Origin: a virus
Length of the DNA stretch: 30,520 bases
Virus record (IMG/VR): IMGVR_UViG_3300025728_000024
Coordinates: 1 to 30,520 of that record
Reading direction: 5' to 3' (one strand)
Numbering within the stretch: the first letter of the stretch is position 1; each line of letters opens with the position of its first letter. Under the pieces are notes generated by a model. The model was not told the DNA's origin, ran no database searches, and was given only the letters and a program-made list of their open reading frames with translations. Positions 2,845 through 28,894 of the stretch are shown here, one piece after another. A program made the translations under genes and the position numbers.

Positions 2845-3065
2845 GCGACAACTCACGCGAGCATTTTGAATCGTGGTGGAGCAAACAAACGTCAATTGAT
2901 CCGTATATCAAGGGCGAAATGTGGGATGCATGGCAAGCAAGCCGCGCCGCTATCGAGATTGAGCTTCCGAAAAGCACAGAATTCGGCCATGTCGATCTTC
3001 CCGGCTACGTCATTGACCGGTGCGCGAGCATGATTGCCGCACAAGGCCTGAAGGTGAAAGCATGA
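2841..3065 (+). CDS. Hypothetical protein with FESWW...WQASRA...ELPK module
   Basis: A 74-residue protein with HFESWW near the start, then MWDAWQASRAAIEIELPK, and an end reading AAQGLKVKA. The layout parallels the gene at 1785-2033 (GWKAAR...ELPKP...GVKV) and the C-terminus of the next gene (NFESW...WLTWQARAALE). These look like copies of one small module spread through the accessory block. Function is unknown. It overlaps the next gene by ATGA. Confidence 0.6.
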   Translation: MSDNSREHFESWWSKQTSIDPYIKGEMWDAWQASRAAIEIELPKSTEFGHVDLPGYVIDRCASMIAAQGLKVKA

Positions 3066-4833: not shown

Positions 4834-5558
4834 ATCAGCTAGTGAATATGCAAGTCCTCACTATGTCGAGCATCGACCTGCGCGACATCGTAAATGATGC
4901 GCGCGAAGAGGCCGGCCAATCCCGCGTTCGCAATGACCAGTTCGTGGCAAGGATAAAAGACGAACTGGGCGACGAATTAGGGGGGTGCAAAAAGATTGCA
5001 TACCCCGGAACCGGCGCCTTCATGGATTATTACGACCTGACGCCTGACCAGTGCATGTTGGTCGGCATGCGTGAATCGAAAGCGGTTCGCCGTAAAGTGC
5101 TCGAAAAGCTAAAGGTCATGCGGTCGCCAGTGGTTCAAGTTCCGCAGACCTTGGCCGGAGCTCTGCGCCTCGCGGCAGACCAGGCCGAGCACATCGAGCA
5201 GCAGGCCCAACAACTGGCCATCGCCGCGCCCAAGGTCGAGTTCGTAGACCGTTACGTCGAGTCGTCAGGCCTCAAGGGCTTCCGCCAGGTCGCCAAGCTG
5301 CTGGGCATCAAGGAGAACCTATTCCGGGCCTTCCTGAGCGATCAGAAGATCATGTACCAGATCGGCGGAGAGTGGGTGCCATACGCCAACCACATCGACG
5401 CCGGCCGGTTTGAAGTCAAGACCGGCGCCAGCGAGGGAGGCCATGCGTTCAATCAGGCCAAGTTCACAAGTAAGGGAATCGAGTACGTCGCCCGCCTGCT
5501 GCGCGACTCAAATAAAATAGAACCTGAAAAGGCCCTCGGCATGGAGTCGGCGCAATGA
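4830..5558 (+). CDS. Phage antirepressor, KilAC domain
   Basis: A 242-residue protein with two parts. The N-terminal part (residues about 1-90) has SSIDLRDIVNDAREEAGQ and YDLTPDQCMLVGMRESKAVR, typical of Rha/antirepressor N-terminal domains. The C-terminal part (about 110-232) has QLAIAAPKVEFVDRYV, GFRQVAKLLGIKENLFRAFL and QAKFTSKGIEYVARLL, which is the KilAC DNA-binding domain. Such proteins block or replace phage repressors or host regulators during induction. No repressor gene is in the window. It is coupled by ATGA to genes on both sides and lies downstream of element B, which could regulate it. Confidence 0.88.
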   Translation: MNQLVNMQVLTMSSIDLRDIVNDAREEAGQSRVRNDQFVARIKDELGDELGGCKKIAYPGTGAFMDYYDLTPDQCMLVGMRESKAVRRKVLEKLKVMRSPVVQVPQTLAGALRLAADQAEHIEQQAQQLAIAAPKVEFVDRYVESSGLKGFRQVAKLLGIKENLFRAFLSDQKIMYQIGGEWVPYANHIDAGRFEVKTGASEGGHAFNQAKFTSKGIEYVARLLRDSNKIEPEKALGMESAQ

Positions 5559-7505: not shown

Positions 7506-7675
7506 AGTGCGAAGACATGCAGCGTAAATTTAACGGACACATAAAGTCGGCGACAGAGCATGAGCTTTGGAATCTATGGGTGGCCAGGGATGAGGATTAC
7601 CGCTTGGTAAGGACGATTGCGCTGCTCGGGTGGGCTCTGGCGCTGACTGGCCCTATAGTTATGATGTTCGGATAA
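7502..7675 (+). CDS. Small C-terminally anchored membrane protein
   Basis: A 57-residue protein with a charged N-terminal two-thirds (HELWNLWVARDEDYRLV) and a C-terminal membrane segment (TIALLGWALALTGPIVMMFG), suggesting a tail-anchored topology. It starts with ATGA overlap on the 36-residue gene. It is the last gene before a long stretch without protein genes. No family recognised. Confidence 0.55.
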   Translation: MKCEDMQRKFNGHIKSATEHELWNLWVARDEDYRLVRTIALLGWALALTGPIVMMFG

Positions 7676-7691
7676 AGGTTCTGAAAAGGGC

Positions 7692-7721
7692 TTCACAGAG
7701 TTAAGTTGGTTGTTCTATACT
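7692..7721 (+). promoter_or_regulatory. Promoter for tRNA and structured RNA
   Basis: TTCACA at 7692-7697 and TATACT at 7716-7721 with 18 bases between them make a good sigma-70 promoter. Transcription would start about 3-5 bases before the tRNA-like sequence at 7731. It is the best promoter match I saw in the window. Confidence 0.6.
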
Positions 7722-7730
7722 GGATCAGTC

Positions 7731-7807
7731 GCCGATGTAGCTCAGTCAGGTAGAGCAACCGCTTCATACGCGGAAGGTCCTCGGTTCAAATCCCTGTATC
7801 GGCACCA
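7731..7807 (+). tRNA. tRNA-Met-like gene, anticodon CAT, CCA encoded
   Basis: A cloverleaf can be drawn. The acceptor stem is GCCGATG with TATCGGC, including one G-T pair. The D stem is GCTC/GAGC. The anticodon stem is CCGC/GCGG with loop TTCATAC. The T loop is TTCAAAT, and ACCA is encoded at the 3' end. CAT could mean elongator Met, initiator Met, or Ile if the C is modified to lysidine. The T stem (CTCGG with CCCTG) has two mismatches out of five, which is unusual, so function is not certain. It directly precedes the structured noncoding region and shares its promoter. Confidence 0.72.
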
Positions 7808-8298
7808 GACAACCAACGCCAGCGACGCGGAGAACAGCTTCCGCCAGCCCGCATCACGCGGAAACCATCGTCTACATCGGCAAGACATCTGAAGCAGGGT
7901 TGATCACCTGCCATTGAAATGCTGGGAGCGGATCGTTGGATTGACGTGAAGCACCACAAGCGCCCGGTTTGCCCCGGAGATGTTTTGACCAATGCAGATG
8001 AAGCCCAGTAAGGGCCAATTACACATCGGTGCCAGGATACGGAAGCGGTGCATGTTGAAAGCCCGCAAGGTCATAACGCCTGGAAAGGGGGCGATTCGTC
8101 AGCCCCTGACATCTGCATCAACCACCAGCGACAATGCCAGCGCAGGACCTGAAATCCTGTTAGCTTCTGGTGGCAAGGACTGGGAGTTACCCGGTCGAGC
8201 GTTCGGTGCTATGAACCGACGGCGCGGGATGCGTCGAGAACTCTGTCCTGTTTTAAACCGATAAGCCTCTCGCAGAAGCTCAAATCATCGGCGCAACA
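7808..8298 (+). ncRNA. Candidate large structured noncoding RNA
   Basis: About 490 bases between the tRNA-like gene and a strong terminator, with no credible coding frame. Helices seen: CCAACG 7813-7818 with CGTTGG 7934-7939; TTCCGC 7839-7844 with GCGGAA 7858-7863; GCAGG 7894-7898 with CCTGC 7907-7911; ATGCAGATG 7992-8000 with CATCTGCAT 8110-8118; AGGGG 8086-8090 with CCCCT 8103-8107; CCACCAG 8122-8128 with CTGGTGG 8167-8173 enclosing CAGGA/TCCTG; GACTGGG 8178-8184 with CCCGGTC 8190-8196; TCGGT 8203-8207 with ACCGA 8215-8219; and a mismatch-containing hairpin 8264-8280. Known large phage RNAs such as GOLLD and ROOL also lie beside tRNAs; membership in those families is not shown here. Confidence 0.6.
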
Positions 8299-8330
8299 AA
8301 AAAGCCCCGGCCTAAAAATCGGGGCTTTTT
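8299..8330 (+). terminator. Rho-independent terminator
   Basis: AAAAAGCCCCG at 8299-8309 pairs perfectly with CGGGGCTTTTT at 8320-8330 around a 10-base loop, giving a GC-rich stem followed by a T run. It closes the tRNA/noncoding RNA unit and insulates it from the lysis genes, unless antitermination occurs. The A-rich left arm could also make it work on the minus strand. Confidence 0.9.
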
Positions 8331-8352
8331 CATGCCCGTCAATCTGCTAAGT

Positions 8353-8392
8353 GTCATATTGACATGACGAACGAATCCAGAGCGCATACAAT
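8353..8392 (+). promoter_or_regulatory. Possible promoter and operator before lysis genes
   Basis: TACAAT at 8387-8392 could be a -10 box. TGACGA at 8365-8370 is 16 bases upstream, and a perfect TTGACA at 8359-8364 is 22 bases upstream, too far for normal use. An inverted repeat GTCAT 8353-8357 / ATGAC 8364-8368 overlaps this -35 area and might be an operator. Both are weak, sequence-only proposals. If used, transcription would enter the lysis and late operon. Confidence 0.35.
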
Positions 8393-24893: not shown

Positions 24894-25600
24894 CGATTCC
24901 AGGGCTGCCCTCGATACCGGACTTTAAAGGGCTTGTTTCCTCCGGCACGGGTGCGCTGATCAGCTTCGGCGGCGCGACATTGATCCGCAAGATCTTCGGC
25001 AATCAGTGGGGTATCTTCAACCAGTTCGGCATCCCGATCATGCTGGCGGATACCGTCTATTCGGTGAAGTACCAGAACAACAGCCAGGTGTCCCAGGCTC
25101 CGGTCGAGAAAGGCACCTTCACCAGCTACAACAAGGTGCAGAACCCCTATCAGGCGACCGTGACCATGATTCGCGGCGGCGGTGATGCCACCCTGCGCGG
25201 CCTGTTCATTGCCCAGCTCGAGCTGCTGTCGAAGTCCACCCTGCTGTTTCACGTCATCACGCCCGAATACGTCCACATCAATGCAGCGATCACCGGCTAC
25301 GACTATGCGAGAATGCCGCAAGATGGCGCCCGCATGATCGCGGCCAACATCTACCTGGAAGAGATTCGCGAAGGCGAGGTCACTTACGAAACCAAGGAGA
25401 CCGCCAATCCGGAGGACGCGCCGCCGACCGATGCGGGCGTGCAGCAGCCGAGACAGGTCGCTGAGTCAATCCTGTTGAGAGTGAATGGTGCGGTCGAAGA
25501 TGCGGGCGGGATTCAGCAGGCGCTTCAAACTGTCGGGGAAAAAGTGATGGACATGTTTGATCGATTCGTAAACGGGACGCCTGGAGCAGTGACGCAATGA
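24890..25600 (+). CDS. Baseplate / tail-tip protein
   Basis: A 236-residue protein just after the tape measure. The N-terminal part has ALISFGGATLIRKIFGNQWG and a beta-rich core VYSVKYQNNSQVSQAPVEKG...FTSYNKVQNPYQATVTMI, ending NIYLEEIREGEVTYE. A proline-rich linker and a helical end follow. This fits the small distal-tail or baseplate proteins of simple contractile phages, which join tube to hub. Family name not certain. Overlaps on both sides by ATGA. Confidence 0.65.
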   Translation: MTIPGLPSIPDFKGLVSSGTGALISFGGATLIRKIFGNQWGIFNQFGIPIMLADTVYSVKYQNNSQVSQAPVEKGTFTSYNKVQNPYQATVTMIRGGGDATLRGLFIAQLELLSKSTLLFHVITPEYVHINAAITGYDYARMPQDGARMIAANIYLEEIREGEVTYETKETANPEDAPPTDAGVQQPRQVAESILLRVNGAVEDAGGIQQALQTVGEKVMDMFDRFVNGTPGAVTQ

Positions 25601-25869
25601 CACTGATGAATATTCCGCTGCAGCCGATCCCCAATCAGTCGGTTTCGTTCCTTCTGAATGGAACGTCGTACACAATTGACGTGGACACTCGCCTCGAGAA
25701 CATTTACATCTCGATCTTTCAGGATGGGGAATACGTGTTGCGCAATCGCGCCCTGCGCGCCTATGCCCCGGTCGGGTTTGACTTGCAACTGGCCGACACG
25801 CTGGGCACGGATGACCCGGTTTACACCGGTCTCGGCTCGCGCTGGTTACTGATGGGCCTGGAGCAATGA
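25597..25869 (+). CDS. Baseplate plug protein (Pam3 gp18-like)
   Basis: A 90-residue beta-rich protein beginning IPLQPIPNQSVSFLLNGTSY and containing NIYISIFQDGEYVLRNRALR and a final GLGSRWLLMGLEQ. It resembles the small plug proteins at the baseplate centre of cyanophage Pam3, whose simple baseplate has few protein types. It lies between the tail-tip and hub genes, as in that phage type, and overlaps the hub by ATGA. Confidence 0.7.
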   Translation: MTLMNIPLQPIPNQSVSFLLNGTSYTIDVDTRLENIYISIFQDGEYVLRNRALRAYAPVGFDLQLADTLGTDDPVYTGLGSRWLLMGLEQ

Positions 25870-26741
25870 ACAAGAAGATCATCCGGACCACCATCACCCT
25901 GATCGGCGACACCTTCGCCCAGGGCAACCCGCTGGTGACTGAAAGCCTGCGCACGATCTGCACCATCAACTTCGGCAACGGGTCAGTGGTGCCGACAGCC
26001 GAGGTCATCATCTACGGCCTCAACATGCCCGCCATGCTCAAGCTGATGCGCATCCGCTGGCGCGACATACGCAGCATGCAGAACACAATCAAGATCGAGG
26101 CCGGCGATCAGGGTGGCGAGCTGACGACGGTCTACGAGGGCAACATCACCTTTGGTTACGTGGACATGAGCAACGCGCCCGATGTGGCGTTTCGTATCAC
26201 CAGTTCTACGTCAATCCTCGACATGTACACCGCCGCTACGCCAATCACGTTCAAGGGTGTCACGCCCGTGGTTCAGGCTCTCGGGGAAATTGCCGATGCG
26301 ATGGGCTACGAACTGGAAAACAATGGTGTCCCTGACTCGCTGACGATGAAGGACGTGACCCTGACGGATACCAACCTGAACAAGATCCGCGCCCTGTGCA
26401 AGCGCTACCAGATTGACCTGTACGTCGAGCAGAAGAGAATCAGTATTGCGCCTCAAGGCGGCTCGAGAAACATCCCCATCGCCACGCTACGACCTGGCAG
26501 CGGCCTCATTGGCTACCCGGCGCCGACGATGCAGGGCGTGGACGTGCGATGCCTGTACAGTCCCGCGATTCGCTTCGGTGGCGTCATCCGCATTGCCGAC
26601 TCCATCATGGCCACATGCAATGGCGACTGGAGGGTGTTCGGGGTTACACTAAACCTTGAGTCCGAAGTGCCAGGCGGCAACTGGTTTATGGACATTCGCG
26701 CCACTCACAACGAGCCCAACAATGTCGCAATCAGTCGCTAA
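25866..26741 (+). CDS. Baseplate hub protein (gp27/gpD-like)
   Basis: A 291-residue protein with hub features: VIIYGLNMPAMLKLMRIRWR, KIEAGDQGGELTTVYEGNIT and a lysozyme-motif-free core DMYTAATPITFKGVTPVVQA. Then come LCKRYQIDLYVEQKRISIAP and an end with GDWRVFGVTLNLESEVPGGN. These match the gp27/gpD-like hub that surrounds the central spike. It overlaps the spike gene by 20 bases. Confidence 0.78.
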   Translation: MNKKIIRTTITLIGDTFAQGNPLVTESLRTICTINFGNGSVVPTAEVIIYGLNMPAMLKLMRIRWRDIRSMQNTIKIEAGDQGGELTTVYEGNITFGYVDMSNAPDVAFRITSSTSILDMYTAATPITFKGVTPVVQALGEIADAMGYELENNGVPDSLTMKDVTLTDTNLNKIRALCKRYQIDLYVEQKRISIAPQGGSRNIPIATLRPGSGLIGYPAPTMQGVDVRCLYSPAIRFGGVIRIADSIMATCNGDWRVFGVTLNLESEVPGGNWFMDIRATHNEPNNVAISR

Positions 26742-27366
26742 GCCGTTTCGCGCCGAGGATTCATCGGGCGGCCCACTGGAAACCGAGTTCATCCTTGAAC
26801 GCCTGATCGGTCGCGCCTACACCATCACGCTGGTCAAGGTGAACGAAGTGCAGCCAGGCGGGACTGGGGCGGTCGGCTTTCTATCGGCGACTGACCTGAT
26901 CCAGCAAATGGACGGCAACAACCAGGGCATCCCTAATGTGCCGATGGAAAACCTGCCCTACTTCCGCCTACAAGGAGGCACCAACGCGATAATCATGGAC
27001 CCTAAGCCGGGTGACATTGGGCTGGCCGCGTTTGCCCGTCGCGACATCAGCGAGCTGAAGCAAAACAAAACCGAGGGTCCGCCGCCAAGCCTGCGCACGC
27101 ATGACGTGTCAGACGGCCTATACTTGGGCGGCCTGCTGAATGGCGCGCCGTCTCAGTGGATTCAGTTCCTCGACAGCGGCATAAAAATCAAAGCCACGGC
27201 CGCCGTGACCATCGATGCCACCCTTCTTCAGGTGAACTGTCCGATCACTTCGACCGGCGACATCACCGACCACACCAGCAGCATGCAAGTGATGCGCGAT
27301 CAGTACAACGCGCACATTGGCCATGCTCCAAGCGGCGGATCATCTCCGAGCGTGCCAATGGAATGA
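26722..27366 (+). CDS. Baseplate central spike, Gp138-type
   Basis: A 214-residue spike with an N-terminal OB-fold part of the Gp138 type (AYTITLVKVNEVQPGGTGAV, IIMDPKPGDIGLAAFARRDI). A beta-helix segment follows (IKIKATAAVTIDATLLQVNC). The C-terminal tip reads MQVMRDQYNAHIGHAPSGG, whose HIGH element (H-x2-H, with NAH just before it) resembles the metal-binding tips of P2 gpV-type spikes. It would pierce the outer membrane. The ATG at 26722 is chosen as it starts just before the conserved part. Confidence 0.82.
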   Translation: MSQSVAKPFRAEDSSGGPLETEFILERLIGRAYTITLVKVNEVQPGGTGAVGFLSATDLIQQMDGNNQGIPNVPMENLPYFRLQGGTNAIIMDPKPGDIGLAAFARRDISELKQNKTEGPPPSLRTHDVSDGLYLGGLLNGAPSQWIQFLDSGIKIKATAAVTIDATLLQVNCPITSTGDITDHTSSMQVMRDQYNAHIGHAPSGGSSPSVPME

Positions 27367-27713
27367 GAACTCTATTTCTTCTGCCTGATACGTGGGATTT
27401 GGCACTCGATTCTTCTGGTAACATTGCTGTGGCTAGCGAGGTCTACCAGCAGGCCCAGGATGTGGCCAGCGCCTGCCGTACCTTCTCGCGCGATCTGTAT
27501 TACGATCAGGCGGCCGGCATCCCCTACTTCGAAAACGTATTGGGCCAGTTCGGTTTTCCGCTGTCGCTGTACAAGATGCACCTGGAAGAGGCGGCCAAGT
27601 CCGTCACTGGCGTGGTATCAGCCAGCGCACAACTACAATTGACCGGGCGCGTGGCCAGTGGCGCCATCCTGTTCACCAACGAAGATAATCAGACCGGGCA
27701 AATACAACTATGA
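27363..27713 (+). CDS. Baseplate wedge protein (gp25/gpW-like)
   Basis: A 116-residue protein with LFLLPDTWDLALDSSGNIAV, VASACRTFSRDLYYDQAAGI and YFENVLGQFGFPLSLYKMHL, the pattern of small gp25/gpW-like baseplate wedge proteins in these phages. It sits between spike and gpJ, as expected, overlapping both by ATGA. It probably starts sheath assembly on the baseplate. No lysozyme catalytic residues are needed or seen. Confidence 0.72.
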   Translation: MRTLFLLPDTWDLALDSSGNIAVASEVYQQAQDVASACRTFSRDLYYDQAAGIPYFENVLGQFGFPLSLYKMHLEEAAKSVTGVVSASAQLQLTGRVASGAILFTNEDNQTGQIQL

Positions 27714-28894
27714 TTCCAGTCATCGAGATCACTGACATTGGCCTGGTCGCCCCGACTCGCGAGGCGATCACGATTGGTCTGTGGGAGATCATGCGCGGCG
27801 CGTTCGGCGAGGACTTAAACGAAGATGCACGCACGCCACAGGGGCAGCTGGTCACGTCGCTAACGGCGGCCATCGATAATCAGAACAGCGCGATGATCGC
27901 CCTCGGCAACAACTTCGACCCGCGCTATGCCATTGGCCAGTTTCAAGAGGCCTTGGGTGCGGTCTACTTCCTGACGCGAAAGCTTGCTACCCGCTCAATC
28001 GCCATGCTGGACTTTATCGGCATTGGCGGAACGGTCATTCCGGAAGGTTATCTGATCGTCGATGATGCCGGTTTTGAGTGGGAAGTTTCCGCCGCTTCAA
28101 CCGTTGGCGCCGGCTTGGTGGCTGCTCTGTGCACAACTTCAGGCCCTATTCAGGCCGCGCCTTTGACCATCACCACCTTCAAGGAAACCATCGACGGCCT
28201 GGACCGCGTCGAAAACCCGGACGCCGCCGCAGCAGGTTCTAATCAGGAGCCCCGTTCGAACTTTGAGACTCGCCGTTATGAGTCGGTCGCGGCCAACAGC
28301 AAGAACATGAACGCCTCGGTGCGCGGCGCCGTGGGCAATCTGGCCGGCGTAATTGACGTGTTTGTGGCGGACAACCCCACTGACGCATCGATCGTCATCG
28401 GCGAGACGGATTACCCAATGATCCGCAACAGCCTGCTGGTGTCGGTGGTTGGCGGCGACGATCAACAGCTTGCCGAGATGATTCTGATTAAAGGAGGAAC
28501 TGGCTGCTCGTTCATGGGCAACACGTCGATTCTCTGGAAAGACGAAGCCAGCGGCGGCGCTCTGCCACCTGAATACATCGTCAAGCTTGAGCGCCCCGCT
28601 CACGTCACCGTTTCATTGCGCCTGACCGTCGTTGATCCATCGGCCATCTCCTACGCCAACTCACAAGCCGCTAAGGCGCAGATCGTGGCCGATTTCCAGT
28701 CAGGCGAATACCGCGCCCGTATCGGCGGCCTGGTGGTAGGGGCGAACTACATGCTGAATCTGGACAGCGCATTGCTGCGCCCGGTCAAGCTGGAACTGTC
28801 CACGGACGGCGTGGCATGGGAAGAGTTCATGCGCTTCGGCGTAGACCAGTACCCAACCACCTCGGCCGCCAACGTCACGCTGGTGGGCATATGA
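27710..28894 (+). CDS. Baseplate J-like protein (gp47/gpJ family)
   Basis: A 394-residue wedge protein of the baseplate J family. It shows EAITIGLWEIMRGAFGEDLN, LTRKLATRSIAMLDFIGIGG, the hallmark GGTVIPEGYLIVDDAGFEWE, and a long middle with RRYESVAANSKNMNASVRGA, which resembles the J family's 'R..A....' segment. It ends in ELSTDGVAWEEFMRFGVDQY. It forms the wedges that hold fibres and link hub to sheath. Confidence 0.85.
   Translation: MIPVIEITDIGLVAPTREAITIGLWEIMRGAFGEDLNEDARTPQGQLVTSLTAAIDNQNSAMIALGNNFDPRYAIGQFQEALGAVYFLTRKLATRSIAMLDFIGIGGTVIPEGYLIVDDAGFEWEVSAASTVGAGLVAALCTTSGPIQAAPLTITTFKETIDGLDRVENPDAAAAGSNQEPRSNFETRRYESVAANSKNMNASVRGAVGNLAGVIDVFVADNPTDASIVIGETDYPMIRNSLLVSVVGGDDQQLAEMILIKGGTGCSFMGNTSILWKDEASGGALPPEYIVKLERPAHVTVSLRLTVVDPSAISYANSQAAKAQIVADFQSGEYRARIGGLVVGANYMLNLDSALLRPVKLELSTDGVAWEEFMRFGVDQYPTTSAANVTLVGI

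Follow-up and report, generated by a model that had tools for sequence, protein, structure and literature searches.

An orphan abiF RNA motif, a putative decoy for host AbiF, in a late-leader cargo slot of a D3-like temperate phage

Upstream of the holin genes of a D3-like temperate phage lies what appears to be a late-leader cargo slot, and we hold with moderate confidence that the orphan abiF module carried there is a putative RNA decoy that would disarm host AbiF. The abiF antitoxin RNA is copied without its toxin gene, suggesting that the phage disarms an AbiF defence. In the proposed mechanism, host polymerase would transcribe the leader from a strong promoter, and the abiF hairpin, by itself or once processed, would bind the putative host target, the HEPN ribonuclease AbiF (Abi_2). 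Bound AbiF would stay inactive, and infection or lysogeny would then trigger no abortive infection. Transcription, AbiF binding and protection are steps that we infer, the decoy role by analogy to pseudo-ToxI and Racr.

Anatomy and modularity of the non-coding stretch

The window (the whole 30,520-base virus record that was analysed; public contigs are labelled L001-L390) is, judged by its sequence, a D3-like temperate phage of Pseudomonas type. Its genes run in the order antirepressor, NinB, NinI, NinG, two tiny ORFs, the stretch 7692-8330, holins, terminase and portal, and a holin related to that of the window is found in D3-type Pseudomonas phages. A sequence-only reading had described the stretch as a unit of promoter (7692-7721), tRNA-Met-like gene, about 490 structured bases and terminator, and all of these parts are present (Table 1). 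At gathering score, tRNA is the sole Rfam match in the stretch. That reading saw no credible gene here, and we agree: the ORFs of 7808-8297 reach 90 aa at most, and relatives have either different frames there or interrupted ones, so that no reading frame is conserved.

The promoter (TTCACA at 7692, an 18-bp spacer and TATACT ending at 7721) matches at 10/12 positions. By itself this is weak proof, as the scan returned 3 promoter-like sites where 1.0 was expected, but the surrounding block is conserved in relatives with different downstream sequence, which upholds the earlier claim; the block is probably a late promoter, pR'-like. A second promoter-like site (8364-8392), followed by the leader-box-like CAACCAAC, lies just past the terminator and could drive the lysis genes.

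The folding energy of the stretch is low (z = -3.3), with 0/100 shuffles equally stable. Both helices singled out earlier exist and form in local folds, i.e., a 7-bp pair (8122-8128 with 8167-8173) and a 9-bp pair (7992-8000 with 8110-8118). The 9-bp pair does not appear when the whole stretch is folded to minimum energy, but in relatives it is the covarying, conserved helix.

Table 1 Features of the stretch between NinG and the holin genes.
Feature	Position	Strand	Basis and remarks
Promoter block, conserved	7670..7724	+	Kept in L094, L095, L097, L098, L180 and L181, each with different downstream cargo
tRNA-Met, anticodon CAT, CCA end encoded	7731..7807	+	ARAGORN; Rfam tRNA 55.2 bits
Leader box CAACCAACGCC	7810..7820	+	Directly ahead of modules in many related phages
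Module M1, two hairpins	7821..7870	+	Relatives and fold; hairpin 1 GCGGA-GAACAGCT-TCCGC (7827-7844; GTGGC/GCCAC in relatives), hairpin 2 CCGC/GCGG (7849-7861)
Variable stem H3	7881..7987	+	Fold; CAAGACATCT 7881-7890 with AGATGTTTTG 7978-7987; relatives have a differently sequenced stem at the same place
Scaffold RNA, divergent copy	7992..8118	+	Helix P1 7992-8000/8110-8118, P2-like hairpin 8003-8015, variable insert, P4-like hairpin 8087-8107
Module M3	8119..8197	+	Relatives; stem CCACCAG 8122-8128 with CTGGTGG 8167-8173 around a CAGGA/TCCTG hairpin
Module M4, GC-rich hairpins	8198..8252	+	In L094, L096 and L021; not in L005 or L006
Orphan abiF RNA motif CCGAT A AGC CTCTCGCAGAA GCT CAAATC ATCGG	8258..8291	+	Rfam RF03085, 27.2 bits, E 0.016; covariation
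Intrinsic terminator, tR'-like	8298..8331	+	Terminator scan and folds; holin genes next

Relatives that share the NinG and holin genes also retain the promoter block and the terminator region, and what lies between these varies. The slot holds three tRNAs and no M modules in L180, M1/M2 only in L181, M1/M2 with M3 in L095, the same plus an internal tRNA-like sequence in L097, two or three tRNAs with M modules in L098 and L094, and M1, M3, M4 and abiF in the more distant phage L021. M3 is 94-97% identical in L002-L006 and L096, where the flanking modules differ, and the occurrence of M4 is independent of that of M3 and abiF. We read the stretch as a modular non-coding slot in late-leader position whose cargo (tRNAs and small structured RNAs) is exchanged. 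The position is supported by those relatives that have Q annotated directly ahead of the slot; in the window itself no Q gene was identified. The earlier proposal of a large structured RNA stands in that the stretch is structured, non-coding and has covarying homologues, and falls in that it is a mosaic of separable modules rather than one ornate RNA.

Two further arrangements were seen among the contigs. The M1 hairpin with a leader box CAACCA[AG]CGC is solitary in L187, L188, L190 and L192, directly upstream of short ORFs in the first two, and appears to be a separate mobile RNA element. The slot start in L096 (4650-5180) holds an inserted ORF, by eye a homing-endonuclease-type gene.

The abiF motif and its toxin gene

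In a permissive Rfam search, abiF RNA (RF03085) was the best match after tRNA, its E value being calculated over all families. The window copy falls under the gathering score (27.2 vs 37 bits); for comparison, cellular copies score 31-55 bits, and an orphan copy in the relative L151 reaches 47.4 bits, above the gathering score. L151 also has two int-alpA RNA matches near threshold (35 bits, at 2966-3032 and 4857-4920). Every core base is present in the window motif and 8/8 pairs are formed (3-bp inner and 5-bp outer stem); the hairpin forms when folded locally, but not when the whole island is folded to minimum energy. We take the motif to be a member of a known RNA family, pointing to a function that the sequence-only reading had not named.

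Scanned with the core pattern, IMG/VR yielded 38 additional stretches, and the genomes of bacteria and archaea yielded 42; among cellular genomes the exact pattern is mainly in Bacteroidota. The outer stem was excluded from the search pattern, so its pairing is independent of how the copies were selected. Across 26 distinct viral copies, two-sided changes in this stem numbered 34, against 10.1 expected from shuffles, and affected 5/5 outer pairs; 88% of cells were paired, compared with 19-53% for slid versions. Covariation among homologues, a check suggested by the earlier reading, was thereby found here as well as in the helix P1 family below. Four viral copies (L017, L023, L031 and L035) have no adjacent outer stem. 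Fourteen of the 34 distinct viral motifs have a terminator-like site behind them (2.1 expected), and in L024 and L037 the motif is solitary, in a compact unit of leader box, motif and terminator. Since the window's own motif went into model R1, the R1 score of the window is not independent evidence. Searches for named phages bearing the window's own abiF copy found none.

AbiF is a toxic HEPN protein, which the abiF-motif RNA RCd22 neutralises in trans through direct binding (PMC12373285). Abi_2 is present in 31/41 cellular genomes carrying the pattern, and the fetched loci of 23/43 cellular motif copies contain an AbiF-type ORF, nearly always directly beside or downstream on the same strand. 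Of 185 genomes sampled within the class to which a gammaproteobacterial genome belongs, 17 have Abi_2, and abiF RNA lay just upstream of it in 5/8 inspected gammaproteobacterial loci. Plasmids of Pseudomonas and many other bacteria encode AbiF; the AbiF of the Pseudomonadaceae plasmid pT75-VIM, homologous to the solved PbAbiF (8VZ6), has a 36.7-bit abiF RNA in its leader.

The viral side differs: none of 43 viral records with the motif has Abi_2, some of these records being fragments and many, of 46-50 kb, likewise without it, and the window has no Abi_2 either. The close relatives L093-L098 and L179-L184 all lack the motif. They keep promoter and terminator but have other cargo, which fits the expectation for an optional counter-defence cassette. 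We found no papers on orphan phage abiF RNAs in the open-licence literature. Phage sk1 reportedly, according to a paper title, protects phage 712 from AbiF; we rejected it as a motif carrier, as the scanned part (25400-28451) has tRNAs only and no abiF motif.

The scaffold RNA family

The 9-bp pair is the closing helix, P1, of a wider family laid out as helix P1, a P2 hairpin with loop AGGCTGAT, an insert hypervariable in length and sequence, a P4 hairpin with loop (A)GATCAGC, and P1'. The window copy has P1 and both hairpins at the family's set places, with the loops AGTAA and GATTCGTCA where the signature loops, absent from this copy, would stand; with the helix and hairpins kept and the signature loops not, it is a divergent relative. 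Typical copies occur in the relatives L005, L034 and L194. Compensatory (two-sided) changes were found in 14/24 pairs among 36 distinct scaffolds (6.1 expected), and 95% of their cells are paired, where slid versions reach no more than 44%. In named phages, where P1 was not a selection criterion, it pairs at 7-9 of 9 positions in 11/12 copies. The two scaffold loops are complementary over six bases that never vary, which suggests that they kiss; as the complementarity is invariant, covariation is no test of this.

Two scaffold patterns matched at least 120 and at least 65 IMG/VR contigs, and blastn matched scaffold pieces in 191 named phages. The family is found in phages of Pseudomonas, Klebsiella and Erwinia, in phage P1 and in E. 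coli prophages. Its place is often beside tRNAs or between Q and holin: it sits inside a ten-tRNA cluster in ZC03 and follows tRNA-Asn and tRNA-Thr in phage P1 (L371:1414-1660; unannotated), while in PAJU2, YA3 and an E. coli prophage its neighbours are a Q/antitermination gene on one side and holin or lysis genes on the other. Further phages have it as well. The stretch around the phage P1 copy matches 1061/5426 complete E. coli genomes (~20%), with no annotated feature beneath most of the E. coli matches listed. No Rfam family covers the scaffold, no papers on it were found in the open-licence literature, and isrJ was rejected as a relative (a weak match, mostly terminator). The scaffold is an unannotated covarying RNA family of many phages, including a model phage, P1, and of roughly a fifth of the complete genomes of E. 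coli.

Within 3 kb of phage P1 lie three scaffold-like copies with long stems CACAACAGGTAAGGG/CCTTACCGTTGTG on their flanks, and one of them holds a T-arm-like GGGTTCGAATCCC. As a general feature, tRNA T-arm-like inserts were discarded (just 4/85, 0.4 expected). tRNA or tRNA-like sequences lie in or beside the variable part in L004/L094 and L006/L097, which suggests that the scaffold RNA tolerates or carries tRNA inserts.

The module at 7992-8118 appears to be an independent structured RNA sharing the slot. An arms-race role is at most plausible, because the slot is shared with a putative counter-defence RNA and the insert is hypervariable. A broader proposal, in which the late-leader slot carries exchangeable RNA counter-defence modules, abiF being one, and the scaffold would be a platform presenting changing decoy inserts to host defences, we put forward tentatively, as a less likely extension.

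Alternative readings and known systems

Could the island instead be one large cis-acting late leader, a Q antitermination or processing signal for the lysis genes with an incidental abiF-like hairpin? It precedes the holins, and the scaffold's place in PAJU2, YA3 and the E. coli prophage would suit such a role. We consider it unlikely, since modules are lost or exchanged freely while the promoter and lysis genes remain, the scaffold copies of ZC03 and phage P1 are with tRNAs and not ahead of lysis genes, and the abiF match is sequence-specific. Slightly less probable again is that the motif is the leftover of a full AbiF toxin-antitoxin module after toxin loss, with no present role. Prophages with AbiF genes do exist (phiC2 and streptococcal phages), and phiC2 has an abiF RNA of 37.6 bits upstream of the gene; phiC2 is among the prophages that carry AbiF-Cd, a system with a proven RNA antitoxin, RCd22 (PMC12373285). 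Against such a remnant stand the absence of any Abi_2 from the 43 orphan records, the compact leader-motif-terminator units, and the compensatory change in the stem, which indicates that the abiF RNA is by itself under selection; moreover, no Pseudomonas phage is among 79 AbiF-carrying phage records.

A distant large ornate RNA of GOLLD/ROOL type, one of two identities offered by the sequence-only reading, is highly improbable. The stretch resembles those RNAs (PMC12286853) in its length and structured nature and in its place near a tRNA in a phage, but it divides into independently inherited modules and has no sequence or covariance-model match. The Rfam check proposed for this identity came back empty: neither GOLLD, ROOL nor any other Rfam large RNA matched at E<=10 in permissive mode. 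The other identity, a new family, survives in one family without an Rfam match.

In lambdoid phages the late leader runs from pR' to tR' as the 6S RNA, and tRNAs or sRNAs are cargo between Q and the lysis genes. The decoy slot that we favour shares the order of promoter, non-coding leader, terminator and lysis genes; unlike the lambdoid leader, the window island is far longer, modular and structured, with Q identified only in relatives. If the decoy reading holds, orphan antitoxin RNAs would be common phage cargo, and the motif would rank, by the open literature that we searched, as the first inhibitor of AbiF made of RNA alone. The AbiF HEPN toxin has been proposed as a Cas13 ancestor.

The closest known RNA is RF03085/RCd22 (PMC12373285; PbAbiF structure 8VZ6), with the same core AAGCCTCTC..GA.GCTCAAATC, a covarying outer stem and a terminator after it. 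The phage copy differs in scoring below the RF03085 gathering score, in being single where RCd22 has two motif copies, in lacking a linked AbiF gene, and in sitting in an apparent late leader alongside tRNAs and further RNAs. For PhiTE pseudo-ToxI, it has been proven that a phage RNA mimics a type III antitoxin (PMC3475682). The window motif is a candidate for the same type of toxin-less mimic, directed at HEPN AbiF instead of ToxN and without tandem repeats. Racr, RNA anti-CRISPRs that are phage mimics of CRISPR repeats (PMC10651486), are likewise solitary viral copies of a defence-system RNA, as the window's abiF motif is in standing without its effector, Abi_2; Racr act as decoys by mimicking CRISPR repeats, whereas the putative decoy described here would mimic an antitoxin.
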